Positions 43,564 to 56,277 of a stretch of DNA of 64,000 nt are shown here, one piece after another. Origin of the DNA: Bacteroidia bacterium (GTDB lineage: Bacteria; Bacteroidota; Bacteroidia; Flavobacteriales; Flavobacteriaceae); contig JAUIBW010000020.1 of assembly GCA_030427585.1 (NCBI GenBank), positions 1-64,000 on the forward strand, in the 5' to 3' direction. The stretch's first letter is position 1. Each line of letters opens with the position of its first letter. A program made the translations under genes and the position numbers. Under the pieces are notes generated by a model, which saw only the letters and a program-made list of their open reading frames with translations, did not search any database and was not told the DNA's origin.

Positions 43564-46164
43564 TTAAGAAACCAAATTTTCCTGATTTCTAAATACTAGA
43601 TTATCATCAAATTCATCCAGTAATATCACACTTTCTGTAGAAATTTTACCTGCTAGAATTTCTTTTGATAGCTTATTTAAAACTTCTTTTTGAATTGTAC
43701 GTTTCACTGGTCTAGCACCAAATTCTGGTTGAAAGCCTCTTTCAGAAAGATAGGCTATGGCCTGTTCTGTAGCATCCAAAGTTATGTGTTGCTCTGCCAG
43801 CATCTTAGAAACGTGCTTTAACTGAAGCTTTACAATTTCATTGATATTAGCTTTGGTAAGCGGAGAAAACATAATGATATCATCTATTCTGTTTAAAAAC
43901 TCGGGACGAACAGATTGTTTTAATATTCCTAATACTTCAACTTTGGCGGCCTCCATAGCTGTATCCATATCTTTGATAGTTTCAAATTTTTCTTGTATAA
44001 TGTGGCTACCCATGTTGCTAGTCATAATAATGATAGTATTTCTAAAATCGGCAACTCTACCTTTATTATCTGTTAAGCGACCTTCATCTAATACTTGTAA
44101 TAATACATTAAATGTGTCTGGGTGTGCTTTTTCTATTTCGTCTAGTAGGACTACAGAATATGGTTTTCTTCGAACAGCTTCGGTTAATTGTCCGCCTTCA
44201 TCATAACCTACATATCCGGGAGGTGCTCCCATTAACCTGCTTACCGAATGGCGTTCTTGATATTCACTCATGTCTATTCGGGTCATAGCAGTTTCATCAT
44301 TAAAAAGGTATTCTGCCAGAGCTTTTGCTAATTCTGTTTTACCTACCCCGGTGGTTCCTAGAAATAGGAATGACCCGATCGGCTTTTTTTGATCTTGCAA
44401 ACCTGCACGGCTTCTTCGTACAGCGTCACTAACAGCTTGTATAGCTTCGGTTTGTCCCACTACACGTTTTTGTAATTCTTCTTCGAGTACCAATAATTTT
44501 TCACGTTCACTTTGCAGCATTTTGGTTACCGGTATTCCTGTCCATTTTGCTATTACTTCTGCAATATCATCATTGGTCACTTCTTCTTTAATAAGTGAAG
44601 ATTTACTTTGTTGCTCGTTTAACTGTTTTTGCAATTCATCCAGTCGTTCTTGAGCATCTTTTATTTTTCCATATCGTAGCTCGGCAACTTTTCCATAATC
44701 TCCATTCCTTTCTGCGCGTTCTGCTTCAAGTTTAAATTCTTCAATATCTGTTTTTGCATTTTGAATAGCATCTACAACTTCTTTCTCGCTTTGCCATTTT
44801 GAGAAAATCTCATTTCGTTCTTCTTTTATATTCGCAAGATCACCATTAAGTGCTTTTAGCTTGGTTTCATCATCTTCGCGTTTTATGGCTTCGATTTCGA
44901 TTTCGAGCTGCATAATCCTTCTATCTAGCACGTCGAGTTCTTCAGGTTTAGAATTAATTTCCATTCTAAGTTTAGAAGCGGCTTCATCCATTAAATCGAT
45001 AGCCTTATCGGGTAAAAACCTATTGGTGATATAACGTTGTGATAATTCTACCGCAGCGATTATAGCTTCGTCTTTTATACGTACTTTATGATGTGTTTCG
45101 TACTTTTCTTTAATTCCTCTAAGAATAGATATCGCACTTTCTGTGTCTGGTTCATCTACCATAACTTTTTGAAAACGTCTTTCCAGGGCTTTATCTTTTT
45201 CAAAATACTTTTGATATTCATCCAGAGTTGTGGCCCCAATTGCACGAAGTTCTCCTCTTGCCAAAGCTGGTTTTAGGATATTGGCAGCATCCATAGCTCC
45301 TTGGCCGCCTCCTGCGCCTACAAGAGTATGGATTTCATCAATAAATAATACGATGTCACCGTCGCTAGAAGTTACTTCTTTTACCACAGATTTAAGGCGT
45401 TCTTCAAATTCACCTTTAAATTTTGCACCAGCTATTAAGGCTCCCATGTCCAAAGAAAAAATTTGTTTGTTCTTAAGATTTTCGGGGATATCTCCGGCGA
45501 TAATTCGATGCGCTAATCCTTCGGCAATAGCAGTTTTACCTACACCGGGCTCACCAACCAACATTGGATTGTTTTTGGTACGACGAGAAAGGATTTGTAA
45601 TATCCTTCGGATTTCTTCATCGCGACCTATAACAGGGTCTAATTTTCCACTTTCTGCCATTTCATTAAGGTTCTTAGCATATTTGCTTAACGCCTGGTAG
45701 GTCTCTTCTGCACTTTGTGATGTTACGCGTTCGCCTTTTCTGATCTCATTAATAGCTTCGGTTAAATGTTTTTCTGTTACTCCCTGGTCTTTTAAGATTT
45801 GCGCAATCTTACTTTTAGATTTAAAAATGGCAATCACCAGATGTTCAATAGAAACATACTCGTCATTCATCTTTTTAGCAATAATACTTGCTTCATTTAA
45901 TGATTTTCCGGCCTCTCTTGATAACTGTAATTCTCCACCAGAAACTTTAGGAAAACTTTCTAATGTGCTATCAAGAACTTGTTGTAAAAGATCAATATTT
46001 ACATTTAACTTTTTTAATAAAAAAGGAAGCACATTTTCGTCTACGTTAAAAATAGCTTTAAAAATATGTTCGTTTTCTATTTGTTGATGTCCAAAACCTT
46101 GAGCAAGCTGTTGTGCTTGTTGTATGGCTTCTTGTGATTTTATAGTGAAATTATTAAAATTCAT
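43564..46164 (-). CDS. clpB: ATP-dependent disaggregase ClpB
   Basis: 866 residues, the Hsp100 disaggregase acting with DnaK. N-domain (1-145), NBD1 with Walker A GEPGVGKT and DEIHTL, a coiled-coil middle domain (about 400-530) and NBD2 with GTTGVGKT, DEIEKAHPD and the arginine-finger region NRIDDI. Length is canonical. It diverges from ytxJ across a 202-base region with a strong palindrome. Confidence 0.98.
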   Translation of the reverse strand: MNFNNFTIKSQEAIQQAQQLAQGFGHQQIENEHIFKAIFNVDENVLPFLLKKLNVNIDLLQQVLDSTLESFPKVSGGELQLSREAGKSLNEASIIAKKMNDEYVSIEHLVIAIFKSKSKIAQILKDQGVTEKHLTEAINEIRKGERVTSQSAEETYQALSKYAKNLNEMAESGKLDPVIGRDEEIRRILQILSRRTKNNPMLVGEPGVGKTAIAEGLAHRIIAGDIPENLKNKQIFSLDMGALIAGAKFKGEFEERLKSVVKEVTSSDGDIVLFIDEIHTLVGAGGGQGAMDAANILKPALARGELRAIGATTLDEYQKYFEKDKALERRFQKVMVDEPDTESAISILRGIKEKYETHHKVRIKDEAIIAAVELSQRYITNRFLPDKAIDLMDEAASKLRMEINSKPEELDVLDRRIMQLEIEIEAIKREDDETKLKALNGDLANIKEERNEIFSKWQSEKEVVDAIQNAKTDIEEFKLEAERAERNGDYGKVAELRYGKIKDAQERLDELQKQLNEQQSKSSLIKEEVTNDDIAEVIAKWTGIPVTKMLQSEREKLLVLEEELQKRVVGQTEAIQAVSDAVRRSRAGLQDQKKPIGSFLFLGTTGVGKTELAKALAEYLFNDETAMTRIDMSEYQERHSVSRLMGAPPGYVGYDEGGQLTEAVRRKPYSVVLLDEIEKAHPDTFNVLLQVLDEGRLTDNKGRVADFRNTIIIMTSNMGSHIIQEKFETIKDMDTAMEAAKVEVLGILKQSVRPEFLNRIDDIIMFSPLTKANINEIVKLQLKHVSKMLAEQHITLDATEQAIAYLSERGFQPEFGARPVKRTIQKEVLNKLSKEILAGKISTESVILLDEFDDNLVFRNQENLVS

Positions 46165-46307
46165 AGTCTCTTATTTTGAGTTTTCTAGTAGAGAATCAAA
46201 TAATATTCCTACTTCAATAATATGTCAAAATGTCTCGTAGTTAATTGATTTAACTGACTTTTTGACGTAATGTAAAGTTACGAATTTTGTTACGACCAAT
46301 ATATGAT

Positions 46308-46338
46308 CATAGTCAATTTTAAAAATCAATTGACTATG
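46308..46338. promoter_or_regulatory. Perfect palindrome in the clpB/ytxJ divergent promoter region
   Basis: CATAGTCAATT (46308-46318) pairs with AATTGACTATG (46328-46338). Outer GACCA (46294-46298) and TGGTC (46343-46347) add partial symmetry. The right arm overlaps a TATGTTTG -7 element (46335-46342) for ytxJ, so the site could be an operator. Confidence 0.55.
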
Positions 46339-46342
46339 TTTG
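46335..46342 (+). promoter_or_regulatory. -7 element of ytxJ
   Basis: TATGTTTG, exact TAnnTTTG, 24 bases before the ATG at 46367. It overlaps the right arm of the palindrome at 46308-46338. Confidence 0.45.
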
Positions 46343-46366
46343 TGGTCATTCATATTAAAGAAAAAA

Positions 46367-46762
46367 ATGGGAATATTAGGTAAATTATTTGGATCAGAAG
46401 AGAAGGAATCTAAACAAGAAAAACAGGCTTTGCCATGGCAAGTACTCAATTCTATTTCACAACTAGAAGATATTGCAGAGGCATCAAAAACTAAAACACA
46501 GGCTATTTTTAAGCATTCTACTCGTTGTGGTATTAGTAGAATGGTAATTCGTAATTTTGAAAGTAGTTTTGATGTTACAGAAGATCAAATAGATTTGTAT
46601 TATCTTGATTTGTTGAATCATCGTGATGTGTCTGCAGAAGTAGCTGCAAAATTTCAGGTATTTCACGAATCACCACAATTTATTGTTATTAGAAATGGTG
46701 TTACCGTGCATCATTCTTCGCATAGTATGATTACACCTCAGGTATTGCATCAGTTTGTATAA
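46367..46762 (+). CDS. ytxJ: Monothiol bacilliredoxin-like protein YtxJ
   Basis: 131 residues from ATG 46367 (MGILGKLFGSEE), which starts the family homology. Thioredoxin-like fold with the characteristic KHSTRCGISRMV segment holding the single redox Cys, and SPQFIVIRNGVTVHHSSHS. YtxJ acts in the bacillithiol redox system, which Flavobacteriia use as their low-molecular-weight thiol. Its stop is 1 base from the convergent trHb gene. Bacillithiol-synthesis genes are not in the window. Confidence 0.88.
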   Translation: MGILGKLFGSEEKESKQEKQALPWQVLNSISQLEDIAEASKTKTQAIFKHSTRCGISRMVIRNFESSFDVTEDQIDLYYLDLLNHRDVSAEVAAKFQVFHESPQFIVIRNGVTVHHSSHSMITPQVLHQFV

Positions 46763-46763
46763 T

Positions 46764-47183
46764 TTATTTGTTAGGAATCATTTTTTGAGAAGGTCTATCC
46801 TGAAACATTTTTACGAATAATGTTGTACTCATTTTTCTTGCACGGTTTTTAGCTAATGTAGCAAGTTCACCTTCAAAAAGGTCATCTATTGTAGTAATCC
46901 ATAGTTGTAGCCATATTCCAAAGTGTACATTTGTAATGCTATGATTAAATGTTCGATCTACTTGCTTATGAACTTCAATTGGATTTCCTTTAAATTTTGG
47001 AACAAATAAGAGGTTGGTTTCCCAAAAATCGGTTAGCCTATCTAAATGTGTGTCCCAATCTTTTATTACATGATTAAAAATAGGGCCTAAATGCTCTTCT
47101 TTCCTGATTTTTTTATAAAATATAGAAACCAACATTGCTACATCATCTCTATGCCTAATATCATGTTTAGAAATCACTTTCAT
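46764..47183 (-). CDS. Group III truncated haemoglobin
   Basis: 139 residues. The helical globin fold and motif set DIRHRDDVAMLVSIFYKKI, HLGPIFNHVI and LTDFWETNLL identify the trHb III group. The proximal His is in NVHFGIWLQLW. Group III proteins have been linked to NO or peroxide chemistry. It lies downstream of a Crp/Fnr regulator and a small membrane protein on the same strand, consistent with a stress-response unit. Confidence 0.9.
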   Translation of the reverse strand: MKVISKHDIRHRDDVAMLVSIFYKKIRKEEHLGPIFNHVIKDWDTHLDRLTDFWETNLLFVPKFKGNPIEVHKQVDRTFNHSITNVHFGIWLQLWITTIDDLFEGELATLAKNRARKMSTTLFVKMFQDRPSQKMIPNK

Positions 47184-47225
47184 TTGCTTTTTTGTTCTAA
47201 GAAGTCGTACAATTGCTTATTCAAA

Positions 47226-47507
47226 TTAATAAAAAGTGATATTAAGCAATACTAAAAGGGTGTTAATAACCAGACTTGCAATTAGTAGGTTGAATACAAA
47301 TTTAGCTTTCATTTGAGCTAGAATGGATGCATTAAATGCCATACAAACAATTACACAAAGCGATAATTGGACAACTTGTGAAAAAGATCTGTCTTGCATA
47401 AGAATGTACATTGCTGCAACAGATCCTAAACAACTGGAAAGAATAATCATTAATGGAATATATGCCATATACATTTCCTTAAAATCTTTTAATAACTTCG
47501 AATACAT
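47226..47507 (-). CDS. Small integral membrane protein (93 aa)
   Basis: Three hydrophobic segments (about 14-35, 46-65, 70-90) with few charges after the first 13 residues. No motif or family recognised, but frame and position between Crp/Fnr and trHb support a real gene. The opposite-strand frame over the same bases has no such topology and is discarded. Could be a membrane partner of the haemoglobin; this is inference. Confidence 0.65.
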   Translation of the reverse strand: MYSKLLKDFKEMYMAYIPLMIILSSCLGSVAAMYILMQDRSFSQVVQLSLCVIVCMAFNASILAQMKAKFVFNLLIASLVINTLLVLLNITFY

Positions 47508-47598
47508 AACAATTACTTTTAGTGTTGTTCAAAGGTATTTCAAGGAAGTATTATGGTTTTATGATCCTAATCATAAAAAAGTAAATTGAATAAGAAAG

Positions 47599-48198
47599 TT
47601 ATCGATATACTTTCCTGTTTTTAATAAAGAGCTCTCCTTTTTGCTCTAGTTTTTTAATGCTTCGTATAACAGTTTCTACACGTAATCCCGTTAGATCTGC
47701 GAGTTGTTGCCGGGTTAGTTCTACCTTGTATGTATTTGATTCTTTCATATTGGGATCGTTATTCTTTTTGAAGTAATCAAGAATTCTAAGAATACGATGT
47801 TCTGGTTCTTGAGTAGATATTTCAGAGACCATAATTGCTTTGTAATATAACCGTAGAGCCAGTGTGCTGGTGAATTTATGGTGAATACCTGGGTTTTCTT
47901 CTAAAAGCTTTAAGAATTTTTCTTTTGGTAATTGCCAGACCTCAGAGTCAATAATAGCTTCTGCATTGGCAGGGTATTTAAAGTCTGCAAATAAAGGAGG
48001 CTCACCAAAACTTTTTTCTTTGGTAAAAATACCTTGTATGTATTCTTTTCCTTCCTGATTATAATTATTCATTTTAATCTCTCCCTGGTATACCTGATAA
48101 TAATATCGGGCAATAGAACCTTCTCTAAAAAGAAATTCTCCCCGTTTATATTTTTTTAGTACTGCTCCCGAATTAAGTAAACTTGTGTAATCAATCAT
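47599..48198 (-). CDS. Crp/Fnr family transcriptional regulator
   Basis: 199 residues: N-terminal cyclic-nucleotide-binding-like beta roll (GEFLFREGSIARYYYQVYQGEIKM; FGEPPLFADFKYPANAEAI) and C-terminal winged helix (LTRQQLADLTGLRVETVIRSIKKLEQKGEL). No Fe-S cysteine cluster of the Fnr type is seen, so it probably does not sense oxygen as Fnr does. It is the first regulator of the unit that ends with trHb. Confidence 0.9.
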   Translation of the reverse strand: MIDYTSLLNSGAVLKKYKRGEFLFREGSIARYYYQVYQGEIKMNNYNQEGKEYIQGIFTKEKSFGEPPLFADFKYPANAEAIIDSEVWQLPKEKFLKLLEENPGIHHKFTSTLALRLYYKAIMVSEISTQEPEHRILRILDYFKKNNDPNMKESNTYKVELTRQQLADLTGLRVETVIRSIKKLEQKGELFIKNRKVYR

Positions 48199-48268
48199 AC
48201 TTACAATTCTCTATTATATAATACCGATCTATTAAGATCAAATAATATTATAATTATAGTGTAGTGTA

Positions 48269-49456
48269 TTATTTAAAACGATAATTAGTAATGATATTCT
48301 TTAATTTATTTTTTAGATCTTCTCCAGAATCATACACCATTTGCTCATTAGAAGGAAAAGGTACTGATTTTAGCCCCAAATATCCTAACAAGCCATCTTC
48401 CAAAGCTCGTTTATCTCCATTATAATTTGCATAAATATGTTGAAAAACATACTCACTTGCAATAGGAAAAGCATCTAGGAGTTGTTTTGTTCTTAAGTCT
48501 CGATACTGAACATTACCCACGACATTGGTAGCTTTAAACTGTGTAAACTCATAATACTCACAATGTACTTTTACCATTCTATCTACTTTTACTTTTTCGC
48601 CTTTATCATCAACTACGATTTCATCATTTTCATCAAGTAGATATTCCCAACCGTCTTTAATCAACTTTTCTTTTTGTAATTGACGTTCCTTGATCTGTTC
48701 TGGAGATATATTAATTTCTCTTAATTCTACTTCCATAGCATAATCATACGGGATAGATTGTTGAGGTTGACTGTGATATACTGTCCATAGGTCATTAAGA
48801 CCATACGTACCAAAATTAAGTAAGTCACTTTCTAATCTTTTAGGGATAATAACATTGGTTCGATTCTTCATAGTCACTTTTACAAAATCAGTGCCTTTTT
48901 GATGTGCCTCATCAATCATTTCCCGGGTATTTTTATAGTTAGGAGTGATTCTGTCCAGGTAGTTCAGATCTTCATATACCGCTCTATAATCGGCTTTTCT
49001 TTTGGCAGATGTCAATAAGGCTTTGGCATTATTAAATAAGTATTGAGAGAGTTTTTCTTTCGTATTTATAATCTTTTGATCATAGTTGTGTAGTATAAAG
49101 TTAGCGTTACGACCTTCTTCAACAAGATATAGAGGTAGCAATGGTTTTATGCGTTCTTGTCTATTCTTTAGGGATAAGTATGTATTATAAATACGTTCAA
49201 GATTTGCAGGATTTCCTTCTTTTTCTAGATATGCAATGGCATTATTGTCTCGATCTAGAGCTTTTGCATATGCCTGTTCCAGCATTAGGATGATAGGTTG
49301 TTTCCCTTTTTTTTCCTTGTTTGTCCTAAGCTTGTTTAAAGCAATATTTATAGCTTGATCATAATTTCCTGTGTTAAGTGCTTTTTCAGTTTTTTTAACA
49401 CTGCTACATGAAGAAATAACTATAGTTGTAAGTAATAGGAGTAGTAGTTTTTTCAT
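48269..49456 (-). CDS. Lipoprotein with TPR-like N-terminus (function unknown)
   Basis: 395 residues with lipobox VISSC (Cys17). The first part (TEKALNTGNYDQAINIALNKL...) looks like TPR helices; the remainder is alpha/beta with a KEKLIKDGWEYLLDENDEIVVDDKGEKVKV stretch. No enzyme motif. Probably an outer-membrane lipoprotein. Placed 70 bases before the Crp/Fnr gene. Confidence 0.7.
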   Translation of the reverse strand: MKKLLLLLLTTIVISSCSSVKKTEKALNTGNYDQAINIALNKLRTNKEKKGKQPIILMLEQAYAKALDRDNNAIAYLEKEGNPANLERIYNTYLSLKNRQERIKPLLPLYLVEEGRNANFILHNYDQKIINTKEKLSQYLFNNAKALLTSAKRKADYRAVYEDLNYLDRITPNYKNTREMIDEAHQKGTDFVKVTMKNRTNVIIPKRLESDLLNFGTYGLNDLWTVYHSQPQQSIPYDYAMEVELREINISPEQIKERQLQKEKLIKDGWEYLLDENDEIVVDDKGEKVKVDRMVKVHCEYYEFTQFKATNVVGNVQYRDLRTKQLLDAFPIASEYVFQHIYANYNGDKRALEDGLLGYLGLKSVPFPSNEQMVYDSGEDLKNKLKNIITNYRFK

Positions 49457-49510
49457 ATCAATAATATTTTGATTTGGGTATCGAAAACAACTTTGATGCC
49501 AAAAGATAAT

Positions 49511-49542
49511 AAAAAAACCTCGAAAATTATTTTTCCGAGGTT
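49511..49542 (-). terminator. Terminator of the leader-peptide precursor gene
   Basis: AACCTCG (49516-49522) pairs with CGAGGTT (49536-49542). On the minus strand it is followed by seven T residues. It lies 21 bases beyond the precursor stop. Confidence 0.75.
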
Positions 49543-49563
49543 GTTTTTGGGGGAATAGGCAGT

Positions 49564-49749
49564 TTATCTACCACCACTTGAGTTACCACCTGTTCCTGGT
49601 TTTGAGCCAAAAACACATACGCCTGCTGGATGACAGTATTGTGTTACTTTACATGGGGGGCAACTTCTTCCTCTTCCTGATCCTCCATTAATTTTTCTTT
49701 GATCAGATTTGTTTAAAACGGTTCCAAGATTTGAGATTCCTTTTAACAT
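49564..49749 (-). CDS. Double-glycine-leader peptide precursor (RiPP/bacteriocin-like)
   Basis: 61 residues from ATG 49749. The leader MLKGISNLGTVLNKSDQRK plus INGG fits the flavobacterial pattern L-x(n)-(E/D)Q(R/K)KINGG, cleaved after Gly-Gly (residues 22-23) by C39-type peptidase transporters. The core is 38 residues: basic start (SGRGRS), four Cys (30, 33, 39, 45) with CPPC and CHPAGVC, and a Gly/Ser-rich tail. The Cys pattern suggests disulfides or thioether rings. No modification or export gene is adjacent. A terminator follows the gene. The 77-residue extension upstream to TTG 49797 is rejected. Confidence 0.7.
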   Translation of the reverse strand: MLKGISNLGTVLNKSDQRKINGGSGRGRSCPPCKVTQYCHPAGVCVFGSKPGTGGNSSGGR

Positions 49750-50227
49750 GATTTTTAATTTTAAAGTTAGTTTTCTCGAAAATTTATAGACACTCAAGGC
49801 TTGTGTCTGTTTTGTTTAGTTTAGTGTTGATGTAAGGTATATAATCACTAAAGTGAATATTACCCCGTTTTCCGTGAAATAAATATTTATTACAAGTGTA
49901 TTGGTATATGGTTTGATTTTTTAATAGAAAATAGAGGTTTCTATTAAAAATTATCATAATACCGAGAAGGTGTCTTAGGCATACCAACTAAAGAAGAGAC
50001 GAAAAAAAAAGTACACAATACATTTTTCTTATAGAGGTGTATTGTGTACTCTATTTTAACTGTTTATAACAGTGGGGGATTTAAACTTTTTTCAATTTGC
50101 TATAAAAAACAACTATTTTTTGCCAGAATCAAACAAGTCTAAATCACCTCGGTATATATTATCATTAAAAATCTTAAATAGGGAAAACTAAGATTGTATA
50201 AATTTAAACATATAGGAAGAAAAAGTA
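49750..50227. other. Intergenic region between precursor gene and fahA
   Basis: 478 bases with no credible gene. It holds the 5' region of the precursor, with a near-match minus-strand -7 box (plus-strand AAAATTTA, 49781-49788), and the fahA terminator at 50001-50049. Otherwise unremarkable AT-rich sequence. Confidence 0.4.
50001..50049 (-). terminator. Terminator of fahA
   Basis: GTACACAATACA (50011-50022) pairs perfectly with TGTATTGTGTAC (50038-50049). On the minus strand the stem is followed by nine T. It lies about 180 bases past the fahA stop. Confidence 0.75.
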
Positions 50228-51508
50228 TTACTTCTTAAATACAGGGAGTAACTTGGTAGAGACTTCACCAAACCCAATTCGAACTCCATCTTTTTCGCAA
50301 TATCCTCTCATAATCACGGTATCATTATCGTCAATAAATTTACGACTACCTCCTTCATTAAGCTGTAGAGGTTTTTCTCCACGCCAACTTAATTCTAACA
50401 TTGATCCATATGAATCTGGTGTTGGTCCGGATAATGTTCCGCTACCCATAAGGTCTCCAGAATTAACGGGGCATCCATTTACTGTATGATGAGTAAGTTG
50501 TTGTGCCATTGTCCAATACATATGCTTAAAATTACTTTTAGATACAACAGTTTCTACTGCTTTTTCTGGTTGAATGGCAACTTCTAGATTTATATCAAAA
50601 CTCTTTTTTCCTTTATATTGAAGGTAAGGTAATTGTTTTTTTAGTGGTTTAGGCCCATCTGTTCTATAAGGCTCTAAGGCATCAAGAGTTACAATCCATG
50701 GAGATATAGATGAAGCAAAGTTTTTACCTAAAAATGGACCTAGTGGAACATACTCCCACTTCTGAATATCTCTTGCACTCCAGTCATTAAATAATACCAT
50801 TCCAAATATATAATCTTCTGCTTCTTCGATAGGTATTGGTTCTCCTAATTGGTTAGCATCGGTAGTAATAAAAGCCATTTCGAGTTCGAAATCAACTAAT
50901 CTCGAAGGCCCAAAGATAGGCTCTTTGGCACCATTGATTAGTTTTTGACCCTGTGGGCGGTGTATAGGAATACCAGAAGGAATAATCGAGCTGCTGCGAC
51001 CGTGATATCCAACAGGCATATGTAACCAATTAGGAAGCAAAGCGTTCTCGGGATCTCTAAACATTTTTCCTACATTCGTCGCATGCTCAATACTACTATA
51101 AAAATCGGTATAATCTCCAATGCTAACAGGCAATTGCATTTCGATTTCATCCAGAGAGAATAAAACCTCTTGTCTATGCTTTTCATTATTTTTTAGAGAA
51201 TTGTTTTTGGCATCAAAAATTTCAGCAATTCTATTACGAACCAATCTCCATGTTTTTTTTCCGTCAGAAATAAAATCATTTAAAGAATCCTGTAAAAAAA
51301 TATCATCTGTTAATGGGATACCATCAAAATAACCGAGTTGATGAAGCGCTCCCAGATCAATAGCGGTATCACCAATCCTGGTCCCTATAGTAATGATATC
51401 ATCTCGGGTAAGAAATACACCAAAAGGAATATTTTGTATAGGGAAATCTGTATTTGGTAATGTTTCAATCCATGTCTTTCTATCTGGATAATTTGCAGTT
51501 ATGGGCAT
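50228..51508 (-). CDS. fahA: Fumarylacetoacetase
   Basis: Hydrolyses fumarylacetoacetate to fumarate and acetoacetate, the last step of tyrosine degradation. 426 residues: HATNVGKMFRDPENALLPNW, PVGYHGRSSSIIPSG, DFELEMAFIT, FNDWSARDIQKWEYVPLGPF and SGDLMGSGTLSGP, which hold the metal and active-site residues. Length normal. Diverges from glyA across a 334-base gap. Earlier tyrosine-pathway genes are not adjacent. Confidence 0.96.
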   Translation of the reverse strand: MPITANYPDRKTWIETLPNTDFPIQNIPFGVFLTRDDIITIGTRIGDTAIDLGALHQLGYFDGIPLTDDIFLQDSLNDFISDGKKTWRLVRNRIAEIFDAKNNSLKNNEKHRQEVLFSLDEIEMQLPVSIGDYTDFYSSIEHATNVGKMFRDPENALLPNWLHMPVGYHGRSSSIIPSGIPIHRPQGQKLINGAKEPIFGPSRLVDFELEMAFITTDANQLGEPIPIEEAEDYIFGMVLFNDWSARDIQKWEYVPLGPFLGKNFASSISPWIVTLDALEPYRTDGPKPLKKQLPYLQYKGKKSFDINLEVAIQPEKAVETVVSKSNFKHMYWTMAQQLTHHTVNGCPVNSGDLMGSGTLSGPTPDSYGSMLELSWRGEKPLQLNEGGSRKFIDDNDTVIMRGYCEKDGVRIGFGEVSTKLLPVFKK

Positions 51509-51842
51509 TATTATTCTTTTATATGTTGTTGGTAATTTTTATGATCAAATATATAATTTTCGAATGGTTAAAAGTTTTTAATTATGTGAAAAATAATGAA
51601 AAGATATGTTATTAATAATACAATACCAAAGTGAGATGACTTATTTGCTGTGTTTTTTTGAAACCCAGAAATGTTTTACTTCGTAATATTTGGTAGGTAT
51701 TACTGCAAAACTATCAGCAATTTATAGTAGAAAACATGAATTTAAAAAAAGAACGGGATGTTCTTATTTATTCAGAGGTATTTACATCGATTTAAGGAAT
51801 GGATTTCCTATTTTTACGCCTTTATTAACAAATAATCAATTC
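51509..51842. other. Divergent promoter region fahA/glyA
   Basis: 334 bases. A minus-strand -7 box TATATTTG (plus-strand CAAATATA at 51546-51553) precedes fahA by 37 bases. On the glyA side only weak AT-rich elements and a short AAGAAC/GTTCTT hairpin around 51748-51766 are seen. No glycine-type riboswitch fold is visible. Confidence 0.4.
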
Positions 51843-53117
51843 ATGCAACGCGACGAACAAATTTTTGATTTAATTCAGGACGAAAAAGAACGTCAAATCA
51901 ACGGATTAGAACTTATTGCTTCAGAAAACTTTGTGAGTGAACAAGTGATGGAAGCTGCTGGGTCTGTACTTACTAATAAATACGCCGAAGGATATCCAGG
52001 TAAACGTTATTATGGGGGGTGCGCTGTAGTAGATGTTATAGAACAGATCGCTATTGATAGAGCTAAAGAATTGTTTGGCGCAGCATATGCTAATGTGCAA
52101 CCTCATTCTGGTTCACAAGCTAATACAGCAGTATATCATGCATGTCTTAAACCAGGAGATAAAATATTAGGTTTTGATCTTTCTCATGGAGGACATTTGA
52201 CTCATGGCTCACCAGTTAATTTCTCTGGTAAGCTATATAATCCTGTTTTTTATGGAGTAGAGAAGGAGACAGGAAGGTTAAATTATGATAACATTCAGGA
52301 AATCGCTACAGCAGAAAAACCACAATTAATTATTGCAGGGGCATCTGCTTATTCACGAGAAATTGATTATAAAAGATTTAGAGAGATAGCAGATAGTGTA
52401 GGGGCGATTCTGTTTGCAGATATTGCTCATCCTGCAGGGCTAATTGCCAAAGGAGTAATCTCTGATCCTGTACCATGTTGTCATGTAGTGACTACGACAA
52501 CTCATAAAACACTACGAGGACCACGAGGAGGTCTTATTTTGATGGGAGAAGATTTTGAAAATCCTTTCGGAATTACACTAAAAAATGGTAAAAAACGAAT
52601 GATGTCCTCATTATTTGATAGCGCCGTATTTCCTGGTAATCAAGGAGGGCCATTAGAGCATATTATTGCAGCAAAAGCAATCGCATTTGGAGAAGCACTA
52701 ACAGATGATTTTTTGCATTATATCGTGCAGGTAAAGAAAAATGCAGCAGTTATGGCTGACGCATTTGTTAAGAAAGGATACGAAGTCATTTCTGGAGGTA
52801 CCGATAATCATATGATGCTTATCGATCTACGAAATAAAGGTGTGACAGGTAAACAGGCGGAAGAAGCATTGGGTGTTGCAGAAATTACGGTAAATAAAAA
52901 TATGGTTCCGTTTGATGATAAATCTCCGTTTGTAACATCGGGAATTCGTATTGGTGTAGCAGCGGTTACCACTCGAGGGTTAAGAGAAGATGATATGATC
53001 GCTATTGTTGAATTGATTGATCAGGTCATCCAAAATGTTGAAAATGAAGAAAAACTACATACGATAGCAGATGATGTAAATGCAATGATGGCAGATAAGC
53101 CTTTATTTGTGGGATAA
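51843..53117 (+). CDS. glyA: Serine hydroxymethyltransferase GlyA
   Basis: Interconverts serine and glycine with tetrahydrofolate, the main source of one-carbon units. 424 residues from ATG 51843 ([18 protein letters not shown]); the longer frame upstream lacks homology. Motifs: [35 protein letters not shown], the PLP Lys in [14 protein letters not shown]. Standard length. Confidence 0.97.
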
Positions 53118-53277
53118 TTCTTTATTAAATTGGTTTTAACTCGGTTTTTGGTAATATCAAAAAATGTAAACTAGTTTGTTTTAGATATGAGATTAAAAGA
53201 AAGTGTATTGCCATGCCGTATGACAGTGCACTTTTTGATTATATTGTTGTTGTAGAACTTTTACTTATAAAATTATC

Positions 53278-54018
53278 ATGTATATGCGTTATGTCCAAAT
53301 TTTATTCTTTTTATTACTTACGCTATATGGTTGCAGTTATTTAACGTCTAAACCATCTGAAGAAAATATAAAAAAAGAAAACTTAGAGAAAGAGATTGAG
53401 CGTGTTGAAAAAAAGGAAGATACCGTAAGTATTCTTAAAAATCTTAGTATAGAAGGACGTTATGATCTTGTAGATGGATATGCTTTTTTTAGGGATACCA
53501 TACATAATCATCCTATATATAAGGCTATATTGTTAATAGAAAGAATTTCGGATAAAGATTTCGGTTTTATTATAGTAAGAAAAGTACAAGGGCTTACTCC
53601 TATTGGTGAACATGGAATTTTATCATACCATAAGAACAGGTTTTATATGAAAAATATAGACTATACAAACAAAAGAATATACCATACAAATAGTACCGAA
53701 ATAAAAATTAAGGATAGTTTATTACATACGATTAGATATGTTTCGAATGCGACAGAATATGATATCTGGAAAAAATCTGATCCAGAATCAAATGTTTATG
53801 TGTCTCTTCGTAAAACATTACAGAAAGAAAAAGAAGAGTATACTAATTTTTATAATAAGATATCTCATGACCCTGAGTTAACAGGAAAAGATGAGTTTAT
53901 TTATTATGAATCAGGAAAACGATATATAGACAATAATTCTGTATTTCAAAAGAAATGGAATCATTATACTACTATCAATTCTTATGATCTTAAAACAGAT
54001 AACAAAGTTCAGGAATGA
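53278..54018 (+). CDS. Lipoprotein of unknown function
   Basis: 246 residues with lipobox TLYGC (Cys19). A Lys/Glu-rich coiled linker (NIKKENLEKEIERVEKKED) leads to a beta-strand-rich domain (GRYDLVDGYAFFRDTIHNHPIYKAILLIE). No family recognised. The last 10 bases overlap the end of the convergent AhpD-like gene. Confidence 0.65.
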   Translation: MYMRYVQILFFLLLTLYGCSYLTSKPSEENIKKENLEKEIERVEKKEDTVSILKNLSIEGRYDLVDGYAFFRDTIHNHPIYKAILLIERISDKDFGFIIVRKVQGLTPIGEHGILSYHKNRFYMKNIDYTNKRIYHTNSTEIKIKDSLLHTIRYVSNATEYDIWKKSDPESNVYVSLRKTLQKEKEEYTNFYNKISHDPELTGKDEFIYYESGKRYIDNNSVFQKKWNHYTTINSYDLKTDNKVQE

Positions 54019-54614
54019 CTCCAGTTCTCTGCATCATCACTATCATTAGGAGAAAGCCCAATAATATCTCCATCAGTATTAACTCCTAAACCAACTACAG
54101 TTCTGTTTACATAATTAAAATAACTTACCACCTGGTTGATCTCCAGGATCTCACCATCAGATAAATTTTGATCTCTAAGACTATGAATATCTGCTTCGGT
54201 AATAGTATGATGTGATAACGTTAACTTCTTAGCATATTGAAGACCTGCCAAATATTGATATTTAAAATGATTTTGCAATTCATCTTTGGATATGCAGGAT
54301 AAAATTTCCTGAAATTTGGTATCATCATTTAATAATCGTTTTAGCCCTGCCGAGTGGTGATCTACACAATAACTGCACTGATTTAAACTACTTACATAAA
54401 CACCGAGAGTTTCTAAATACCATTTGGGTAATGTGTTATTAGAGTTATGCAATACATTTTTATATAAGGCCATATGGCCTAGCAGAGTATGTGGTCGTAA
54501 ACTATGAATAGATAATACGTTATCTACATTGTTATCTGGGCCTTTAATACGATCATAGATTTTTTTTAATTGACCAGTAGCATTGGCATATGTAATTTCT
54601 TTAATCCAGCTCAT
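54009..54614 (-). CDS. AhpD-like/carboxymuconolactone decarboxylase family protein
   Basis: 201 residues. The redox centre is LNQCSYCVDHHSAGL (CxxC followed by His), typical of AhpD-type peroxidase-related proteins; HSLRPHTLLGHMALYKNVL precedes it. Such proteins reduce peroxides or partner reductases through the two Cys. Located 2 bases after lspA on the minus strand. Confidence 0.85.
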   Translation of the reverse strand: MSWIKEITYANATGQLKKIYDRIKGPDNNVDNVLSIHSLRPHTLLGHMALYKNVLHNSNNTLPKWYLETLGVYVSSLNQCSYCVDHHSAGLKRLLNDDTKFQEILSCISKDELQNHFKYQYLAGLQYAKKLTLSHHTITEADIHSLRDQNLSDGEILEINQVVSYFNYVNRTVVGLGVNTDGDIIGLSPNDSDDAENWSHS

Positions 54615-54616
54615 TG

Positions 54617-55132
54617 TTATTGAATTTTTTCTTTAAAAATAGTTCCTTTTTTATTAAAAAAAGTAGTAATTAAAACCAAAATTGAACCTAAAAAAATTGA
54701 AACATCGGCAAGGTTAAATATTTCAGTTTTTATGATACCTAAATCTAAAATCAAAAAATCAGTTACTGATCCATATACAATGCGATCAAAAAGATTTCCG
54801 ATTCCGCCACCGATAATAAAAGCAAACCCTATAATTGTTTCTCTAGAATAATTTGTTTTAACCAATATCTGTCTTAATAATAGTAATAAAACCAAAATAG
54901 GAAGAACTTGTAATAAAAGTATTTTTAAGATCGGAGCCATATCTGATCCCAAGCTATAAGCAGCACCAGTGTTTTCGACCTTAGTTAGCACAAAATTGTC
55001 CTTAAAAACTTCTATACGCTCATAAGGCTTGATCGTTTGCCGAACAACATTTTTTGAAATTTGATCACAACTAATATTTAGCAAAACCAGAGAGAGAATG
55101 AGTATGATTCTTATTTTTCTTGTTATTTTCAT
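54617..55132 (-). CDS. lspA: Lipoprotein signal peptidase LspA
   Basis: Cleaves signal peptides of prolipoproteins at the lipobox Cys in the inner membrane. 171 residues from ATG 55132 (MKITRKIRII), preferred over TTG 55144. Four membrane helices; catalytic aspartates in GGGIGNLFDRIVYGSVTDFL and FNLADVSIFLG. The N-terminal helix ends with NISCDQISK, the DQ of which is conserved. Many proteins in this window are its substrates. Confidence 0.94.
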   Translation of the reverse strand: MKITRKIRIILILSLVLLNISCDQISKNVVRQTIKPYERIEVFKDNFVLTKVENTGAAYSLGSDMAPILKILLLQVLPILVLLLLLRQILVKTNYSRETIIGFAFIIGGGIGNLFDRIVYGSVTDFLILDLGIIKTEIFNLADVSIFLGSILVLITTFFNKKGTIFKEKIQ

Positions 55133-55182
55133 GTGTAATTGCAATACGTGTTTTTCAAATGTAATAGAAACTTCAGACTATC

Positions 55183-55716
55183 TTAGTGTTTCCAATATTT
55201 TTTATATTCAGAAACAGAAAAAGCAGCATTATAATTATCTTTATTGATGCTTTTATTTTCATTAGAATCATAATCAATCCATATTTTCCAGCTTTTATCT
55301 TCCATCTTTAGTATAACATGAAACTGACCATAGGAGTGTTTTTTTTGATTATTGTTATCAATATAAGTAACTCTGTAAATTCCTCTGTCAGAAACAATAG
55401 AATCAGAATAAATTCTTTCAAATAATCTAAAATCAATTGGAGTAGGTTTTTTAGAAGGAGCACTCCATCGTTTTTGATACCCTTTTAAGTAAGTACTTAC
55501 TTTTTTAATTTCACCACCATTTCCCGAAATTCGAATCATCTCTTTGCTATGTATAGAAGCAAATAAGTCATAATCTAAAGTTTCAAATGCTTTAGAGAAA
55601 TTACTATACATATCTGTATTGATTTTTTTATGTACAGTACCTTCTTGAGCTATGGCTATTCGTGTAAAACACAGAAAGGTAATTAATGCTACAGGTATGA
55701 TTTTAAATTTTGACAT
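55183..55716 (-). CDS. NTF2-like (DUF4440-type) secreted protein
   Basis: 177 residues with signal peptide (about 1-23, AIAQ). NTF2/SnoaL-like cone fold: FSKAFETLDYDLFASIHSKEMIRISGNGGEI and a late IWIDYD strand. No catalytic residues recognised. Between the GNAT gene (21 bases) and lspA (50 bases). Confidence 0.75.
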   Translation of the reverse strand: MSKFKIIPVALITFLCFTRIAIAQEGTVHKKINTDMYSNFSKAFETLDYDLFASIHSKEMIRISGNGGEIKKVSTYLKGYQKRWSAPSKKPTPIDFRLFERIYSDSIVSDRGIYRVTYIDNNNQKKHSYGQFHVILKMEDKSWKIWIDYDSNENKSINKDNYNAAFSVSEYKKYWKH

Positions 55717-55737
55717 AGTAATTGTTTTTTAATTAGT

Positions 55738-56277
55738 CTAGTATCCTTTTTCTTTCTCATATAACACACAGTATTTCAATCGTTCATCATGTAATAATTT
55801 GGGGTGTTCAAAGGTTTCGATTTGTTGCATCCCAATCTTTTTCATAATTAATTCTGATTTTATGTTAATTGCTGGAGCAACAGAGTAGATTTTGTCTAAT
55901 CCAATCGTATTAAAACCAAAACCTAAACAAGCTTTGGCGCCTTCGGTAGCATATCCTTTGTTCCAGATACTTTTTTTGAGCCTCCAACCGATATCCACAA
56001 AGGGGCTTGGTTTTTCTAAATAGGTTTGTTCACATAAACCAATAAACCCTATAAGTTCTGCATTATTCAACAGATCAACAGCAAAATAACAAAACCCTTT
56101 TTCTACATACATTTCTTGCATTCTTATAATAAATGCTCTGGTATCTTCTTTTGATGGTTTAAACGGAAAAAATTCCATCACATCATCATCAGTATTGATT
56201 TCGGCTAATATTTCTAAGTCATCAAGGGTCCAATTACGGAAACCTAGTCGTTGAGAAGTGAAGAGATATGGAGTCAT
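55738..56277 (-). CDS. GNAT acetyltransferase (RimJ/RimL type)
   Basis: 179 residues. Starts with TSQRLGFRNWTLDDLEILAEIN (RimJ/RimL-like) and has the acetyl-CoA site DIGWRLKKSIWNKGYATEGAKACLGFGF with family-typical G-x-A-x-E spacing, then LDKIYSVAPAINIKSELIMKKIGM. Cytoplasmic N-acetyltransferase of unknown substrate. First of the unit ending with the AhpD-like gene. Confidence 0.9.
   Translation of the reverse strand: MTPYLFTSQRLGFRNWTLDDLEILAEINTDDDVMEFFPFKPSKEDTRAFIIRMQEMYVEKGFCYFAVDLLNNAELIGFIGLCEQTYLEKPSPFVDIGWRLKKSIWNKGYATEGAKACLGFGFNTIGLDKIYSVAPAINIKSELIMKKIGMQQIETFEHPKLLHDERLKYCVLYEKEKGY

Follow-up and report, generated by a model that had tools for sequence, protein, structure and literature searches.

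A double-glycine-leader peptide gene of a large Bacteroidota family, with an upstream pseudoknot element and a candidate C39-like/VKOR/thioredoxin partner

The window analyzed here is a 64,000-nucleotide stretch of a Flavobacteriaceae genome (assembly GCA_030427585.1, contig JAUIBW010000020.1, positions 1 to 64,000), whose minus strand encodes a 61-residue peptide precursor with a double-glycine (GG) leader. In our reading, which we put at a probability of about 0.65, the gene entered this locus recently and stands alone, its product belonging to a large Bacteroidota family of secreted and mostly Cys-rich peptides that work by the mechanism proposed below. The product would then be a secreted, bacteriocin-like peptide with disulfide bonds, which a fusion protein oxidizes and a C39 transporter exports; the genes for both lie elsewhere in the genome. 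The open reading frame (ORF) is more than a chance frame, as shown by matches in other genomes and by a covarying pseudoknot upstream of it. In the literature covered, in which subscription journals were thinly represented, no description of the peptide family, the fusion or the RNA was recognized; the peptide class treated in PMC13252029 differs from this family.

The precursor and the family sharing its leader

Translation of the precursor frame gives MLKGISNLGTV-LNKSDQRKINGG followed by 38 residues and a stop, in agreement with the double-glycine-leader ORF proposed in a first-pass annotation of this DNA. The leader reads MLKGISNLGTVLNKSDQRKINGG. That annotation had also described a basic core with four Cys, which the composition confirms, and a pattern with a lone extra Cys, which it does not: the Cys are arranged as CPPC...CHPAGVC. 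The computed monoisotopic mass of the core is 3750.73, or 3746.70 with two disulfides.

Substrates of peptidase-containing ATP-binding cassette (ABC) transporters (PCATs), i.e., class II bacteriocins and peptides of the ComC/CtA type, resemble the window family in having GG at –2/–1, Leu(–12), an acidic residue or Gln at –8, a hydrophobic residue at –4 and a small core. The PCAT leader consensus, as given in PMC6959990, has L(–12), E(–8) and L(–7); the window leader has L(–12) and D(–8), whereas Gln replaces Leu at –7. Gln occupies –7 in 292 of 325 related leaders, and this substitution may mark a separate recognition group.

When 56 genomes were searched with the window peptide, 18 (the source genome included) had matches at E≤0.01, all in the same genus, with the best match outside the source genome at E 1.1e-6. 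The genus is inferred to be Aquimarina from named records in which the fusion is 93–94% identical to the source genome's own. The motif common to the family is the leader NLGkxLsKxEQkxInGG, and the translated cores behind it are divergent and mostly Cys-rich. A leader profile (A1) was built from 24 leaders; since the window copy is in the training sets of both A1 and the RNA model R1 described below, its own scores against them are not independent. A1 found 42 places in the source genome at E≤10 and 28 at E<0.01, one of the latter interrupted by an in-frame TAG, and some of the weaker places are genuine on reading, e.g., those adjoining the fusion on contig C41. In the genus set of 52 genomes, 44 carry the leader family at E≤0.001, with a maximum of 47 members per genome. 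The gene, which had been annotated as an orphan, is therefore one of many, and the search for further leader copies that the annotation had proposed returned the 28 places.

A wider view of the cores came from 325 distinct related peptides at loci encoding the fusion. The leader ends in GG in 302, GS in 17 and GA in six, in a scan that demanded Gly and then Gly, Ser or Ala at this place. Nine peptides have no core Cys; in the other 316 the number is even in 287 (for the most part four, in 131, or six, in 134) and odd in 29. Random members share leader identity of 0.66 and core identity of 0.24, against 0.22 for shuffled cores. For the 72 pairs whose leaders are 90% or more alike, the cores rise to an identity of 0.36 against 0.24 shuffled, and thus some cores are related. 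The core alignment that had been suggested as a check therefore finds relatedness among such pairs, but near-shuffled identity overall.

Against Pfam and NCBIfam, the window peptide matched no family at E≤10 and reached the curated cut-off of no peptide family, so assignment to a known peptide family was rejected. A few other members match NF047792 (CCPGW putative bacteriocins), NF047798 (leader_Chryseo) or PF14406 (Bacteroid_pep) below threshold, and these are likewise Bacteroidota small peptides with GG leaders.

Inspection by eye of the ORF list from 44000 to 56000 recognized neither a transporter nor a modifying enzyme of the lanthipeptide or radical-SAM type, of which the latter is what places a precursor among those peptides; on this point we agree with the first-pass annotation. 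Class II bacteriocins are marked by an adjacent immunity gene; the neighbors here, judged by eye, are a lipoprotein-like gene and one that we take to be fumarylacetoacetase-like, and no immunity-like gene was recognized beside the window gene. Unlike PCAT systems, then, the gene has neither a transporter nor a recognized immunity gene adjacent, and its many paralogues are scattered. That same arrangement, with divergent cores in many scattered members, could also be expected of secreted pheromone-like signals whose repertoire encodes kin or strain identity, and GG leaders are used by pheromones of the ComC type as well as by antimicrobials. However, inspection by eye recognized no sensor kinase next to the gene (an ORF at 47599–48198 encodes a Crp/Fnr-like regulator), and signals would not usually come with tens of different cores in many genomes. 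We consider signaling an unlikely role, and favor the bacteriocin-like one.

A pseudoknot upstream of family members

A conserved sequence upstream of part of the family, AGACAcAaaCCtTGAGTGTCTtTAAAtGTTCAaGG, reads as an H-type pseudoknot with two helices, S1 and S2. Family starts located by pattern numbered 68; 27 had a candidate element, 26 of these were aligned and 20 were kept for the model R1 and a first covariation analysis, the six dropped rows being four with one loop a base longer, at which the alignment slipped, and two of poor fit. In the 20-element alignment, 97.2% of cells are paired, against 27–51% when the strands are slid, and two-sided changes are seen at five of the six S2 pairs. 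R1 contains S2 as its sole helix; the window copy forms five of these six pairs, one of them G-U.

R1 matched ten places in the source genome at E<0.01. Behind them lie eight family peptides, one GG peptide with another leader and one lipoprotein-like gene, and therefore most family members of the source genome have no detected element. Across the genus set, R1 was found in 43 of 52 genomes at E≤0.01. In the 80 fusion loci described below, it gave 146 matches at E≤0.05, all on the strand of the fusion, of which 135 are located 130 nt or less upstream of the start codon of a family member, at a median distance of 63 nt. We aligned 145 matches (121 distinct rows) from 53 chosen sources, some of which overlap (the window and L067; L071 and L072). 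In this alignment (A6), 97.6% of cells pair, against 20–54% when slid, with a covariation score of 0.309 against 0.133 for shuffled rows, and all six S2 pairs show two-sided changes, counts that are biased towards S2 because the alignment was fitted to it. S1, which is outside the model as a helix, pairs at 98.5%, mostly through invariant letters.

A box like ATTCTCTCGCGAAGAAT abuts R1 elements in other genomes, in the 17 nt directly upstream (e.g., in L228, L218, L223 and L241). CGCG stands at that place in 37 of 90 distinct 17-mers, and the box is missing from the window copy. It is possibly an operator or a hairpin; as a hairpin it is weak, with 61% of cells paired against a shuffled mean of 53% (maximum 58%) and 57% when slid by two. 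The abutting box could be taken to mean that the whole conserved stretch is a protein-binding DNA site and not an RNA structure. Against this stand the interleaved helices, the two-sided changes and pairing across A6, and a nearly fixed distance to the start codon, and we regard a DNA site as very unlikely and keep to an RNA pseudoknot.

A scan of 49540–50000 against Rfam at E≤10 gave nothing credible for the window element, RF02914 likewise being unmatched there. Among 12 loci from the source genome and relatives, the sole overlap with a noted element was a chance-level match to BTncRNA_FopS on the opposite strand (L023, E 3.1), and in four R1-rich loci the elements were unmatched at E≤1. For the copies scanned, identification with a known RNA family was thus rejected. 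DUF805b RNA (RF02914, clan CL00115), presumably itself a pseudoknot, may be taken as an analogous element: it is short, has a comparable spacing to the start codon and stands upstream of GG-type peptides, although its sequence consensus differs. One locus (L025) has a DUF805b match under the gathering score, upstream of a different peptide. In the source genome DUF805b exceeds its cut-off nine times, and the eight readable genes that follow (L079–L086) code for four GG-type peptides, one of which has GK in place of GG, and for four proteins that are secreted or lipoprotein-like. This arrangement may hint at what the Rfam motif regulates.

The C39-like/VKOR/thioredoxin fusion and C39 transporters

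In relatives, family peptides are adjoined by a gene for a fusion protein of ~530 aa, which combines a C39-peptidase fold without its nucleophile, a VKOR domain and a thioredoxin domain; the source genome's own copy lies on contig C41, away from the window gene. The predicted model of the N-domain matches the domains of PCAT1, ComA, LahT and HlyB, with papain-like toxin domains scoring close behind; when the N-domain profile was run against the sequences of solved structures, the matches stayed at chance level. The predicted fold is thus that of the HlyB-type C39-like domain (PDB 3zua, 8dck), but it is joined to VKOR and thioredoxin and not to an ABC transporter. In HlyB-type transporters this domain has a non-proteolytic role. 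The catalytic Cys is gone: no Cys occurs in the first 60 N-domain residues of any of the 78 readable fusions in the 80 loci. The VKOR loop Cys pair, the VKOR CxxC and the thioredoxin CxxC, invariant in 15 aligned fusions, are those of bacterial VKOR-thioredoxin fusions, from which the present protein differs by its extra N-terminal C39-like domain and its link to GG-leader peptides.

From 210 fusion relatives, 80 loci were kept as the locus set. Of these, 58 carry one or more family peptides (21 of 39 with own-type fusions and 37 of 41 with other fusions), for a total of 334 peptides in 1.317 Mb, i.e., 25 per 100 kb. The fusion N-domain and the leader family agree in 52 of 52 genomes, 44 having both and eight neither, a count that is uncorrected for kinship and includes three genomes less than 90% complete (G021, G031 and G063). 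Four of the eight genomes with neither (G005, G007, G058 and G059) still have a C39 match, and therefore the family follows the occurrence of the fusion more closely than that of the transporter.

VKOR-thioredoxin fusions carry out general disulfide formation in other bacteria, and the present one might do the same in the cell envelope, its link with the peptides reflecting shared ancestry only. Such a role would accord with the other-leader GG peptides that fusion loci also carry, and kinship may inflate the co-occurrence. Retention of a nucleophile-less C39-like fold, the agreement across all 52 genomes and the genome in which the sole family place adjoins the fusion (G003) argue otherwise, and we hold a general oxidase to be quite unlikely compared with a peptide-dedicated one. 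The disulfide-bonded core that the first-pass annotation had suggested is consistent with the mostly even Cys numbers and with the co-occurrence of the fusion.

Two further arrangements were seen at fusion loci. Beside the fusion on contig C41 lie four near-identical tandem GG-leader peptides without Cys (L109, 7108–7912), and three loci (L160, L161 and L163) hold clusters of a C39 transporter, the fusion, ~430-aa proteins starting with IQSFWSKP and small peptides with leaders ending in GGY.

The annotation had proposed export by a transporter encoded elsewhere, together with a genome search for C39 ABC transporters. Three are present in the source genome, on contigs C37, C50 and C56, none adjoining the window gene. 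The one on C37 is 70% identical to a C39 transporter that, in genome G011, has family peptides, an HlyD-like gene and the fusion around it, and 70–75% identical to the nine relatives compared, whereas the other two are 28–33% identical to them. A long match to the C37 transporter occurs in 30 of the 80 fusion loci, in 28 of them at 60–73% identity. This homology is consistent with export in trans. The C37 transporter sits, as judged by eye, in an ATP-grasp/SPASM-type cluster, and because of that setting its assignment to the peptides is a best guess. Contig C50 has a second peptide cluster (L107), in which GG leaders of a different type occur together with a C39 transporter, a divergent C39-like/VKOR protein and a protein that looks, by eye, like a lantibiotic dehydratase.

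Insertion of the gene and proposed working

Coordinates of the features in and around the precursor gene
Feature	Position	Strand	Basis
Precursor gene, 61 codons + stop	49564–49749	minus	Translation; similar places in 18 of 56 genomes including the source genome
Double-glycine leader, 23 residues; L(–12), D(–8), Q(–7), I(–4), GG	49681–49749	minus	Translation; leader alignment; PCAT consensus in PMC6959990
Core, 38 residues; 4 Cys, 5 K/R, no D/E	49567–49680	minus	Computed composition
5'-untranslated-region H-type pseudoknot (R1)	49768–49808	minus	R1 match; covariation
Pseudoknot helix S1	49808–49803 with 49793–49788	minus	
Pseudoknot helix S2	49799–49794 with 49779–49774	minus	
Inserted block, ~660 bp: upstream region, pseudoknot, peptide gene	49550–50227 (approximate)	minus	Absent from relatives examined
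Upstream neighbor, fumarylacetoacetase-like, conserved in relatives	50228–51508	minus	
Downstream neighbor, 395-aa lipoprotein-like	48269–49456	minus	Found in 40 of 47 genomes
Intrinsic terminator that now follows the peptide gene; ancestral terminator of the fumarylacetoacetase-like gene	49516–49542	minus	Kept in aligned relatives
Second hairpin within insertion, T run after it on minus strand	50010–50050	minus	
Dispersed-repeat stretch within insertion, >20 partial copies elsewhere in genome	50078–50167	minus	

The locus was compared in 30 sequences, the window and 29 relatives. The gap to the fumarylacetoacetase-like gene is 106–117 nt in relatives (258 nt in one) and 775 nt in the window, and a leader-pattern search of 1.5 kb upstream found a peptide in none of the 29. 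Since the insertion occurs only in the window locus while the neighbors are conserved in relatives, the peptide gene was probably gained recently. The hairpin downstream of the gene had been annotated as its own terminator, but seven aligned relatives that lack the peptide carry it in their short gaps, so that it belongs to the upstream gene. The second hairpin could now end the transcript of that upstream gene.

A cassette brought by mobile DNA may look intact and yet be dead or non-expressed in this strain. Its absence from all 29 relatives, the dispersed repeat in its flank and the one mismatch in S2 would suit such a history. The intact frame and leader motif, the even Cys number and the score that R1 still gives the pseudoknot (the copy being in its training set) speak for a working gene instead, and we doubt that the insertion is functionless.

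For a working gene, we propose the following sequence of events. The mRNA pseudoknot, which ends ~24 nt before the AUG, would set the translation or stability of its gene set. C39-fold domains would recognize the leader, one of them being the Cys-less domain of the C41 membrane protein, and this fusion would take the precursor to its disulfide-forming center, where the four core Cys would be paired into two disulfides, either while the peptide is exported or directly afterwards. Cleavage after GG and export of the core would fall to a C39 peptidase-ABC transporter, for which C37 is the likeliest candidate by homology. The released mini-protein may then act on competitors in the manner of a bacteriocin, with varied cores diversifying the targets, which is the least certain step. 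The stronger form of this proposal is a leader-guided disulfide synthase, in which a dead C39 fold binds leaders, VKOR-thioredoxin oxidizes dozens of unlinked hypervariable mini-proteins in trans, a non-Rfam pseudoknot controls many of the genes and cores can be inserted anywhere as self-contained cassettes; we give it even odds.

If the proposal is true, the RNA class would add a new cis-element that can be tested on a defined set of genes, and the fusion would offer a compact means of producing disulfide-rich peptides, addressed through the leader. Leader, pseudoknot and fusion provide three searchable handles. The genomes of Aquimarina, Tenacibaculum and their relatives would then encode large numbers of disulfide-bonded mini-proteins, some of them overlooked by cluster-based mining because their genes stand alone.
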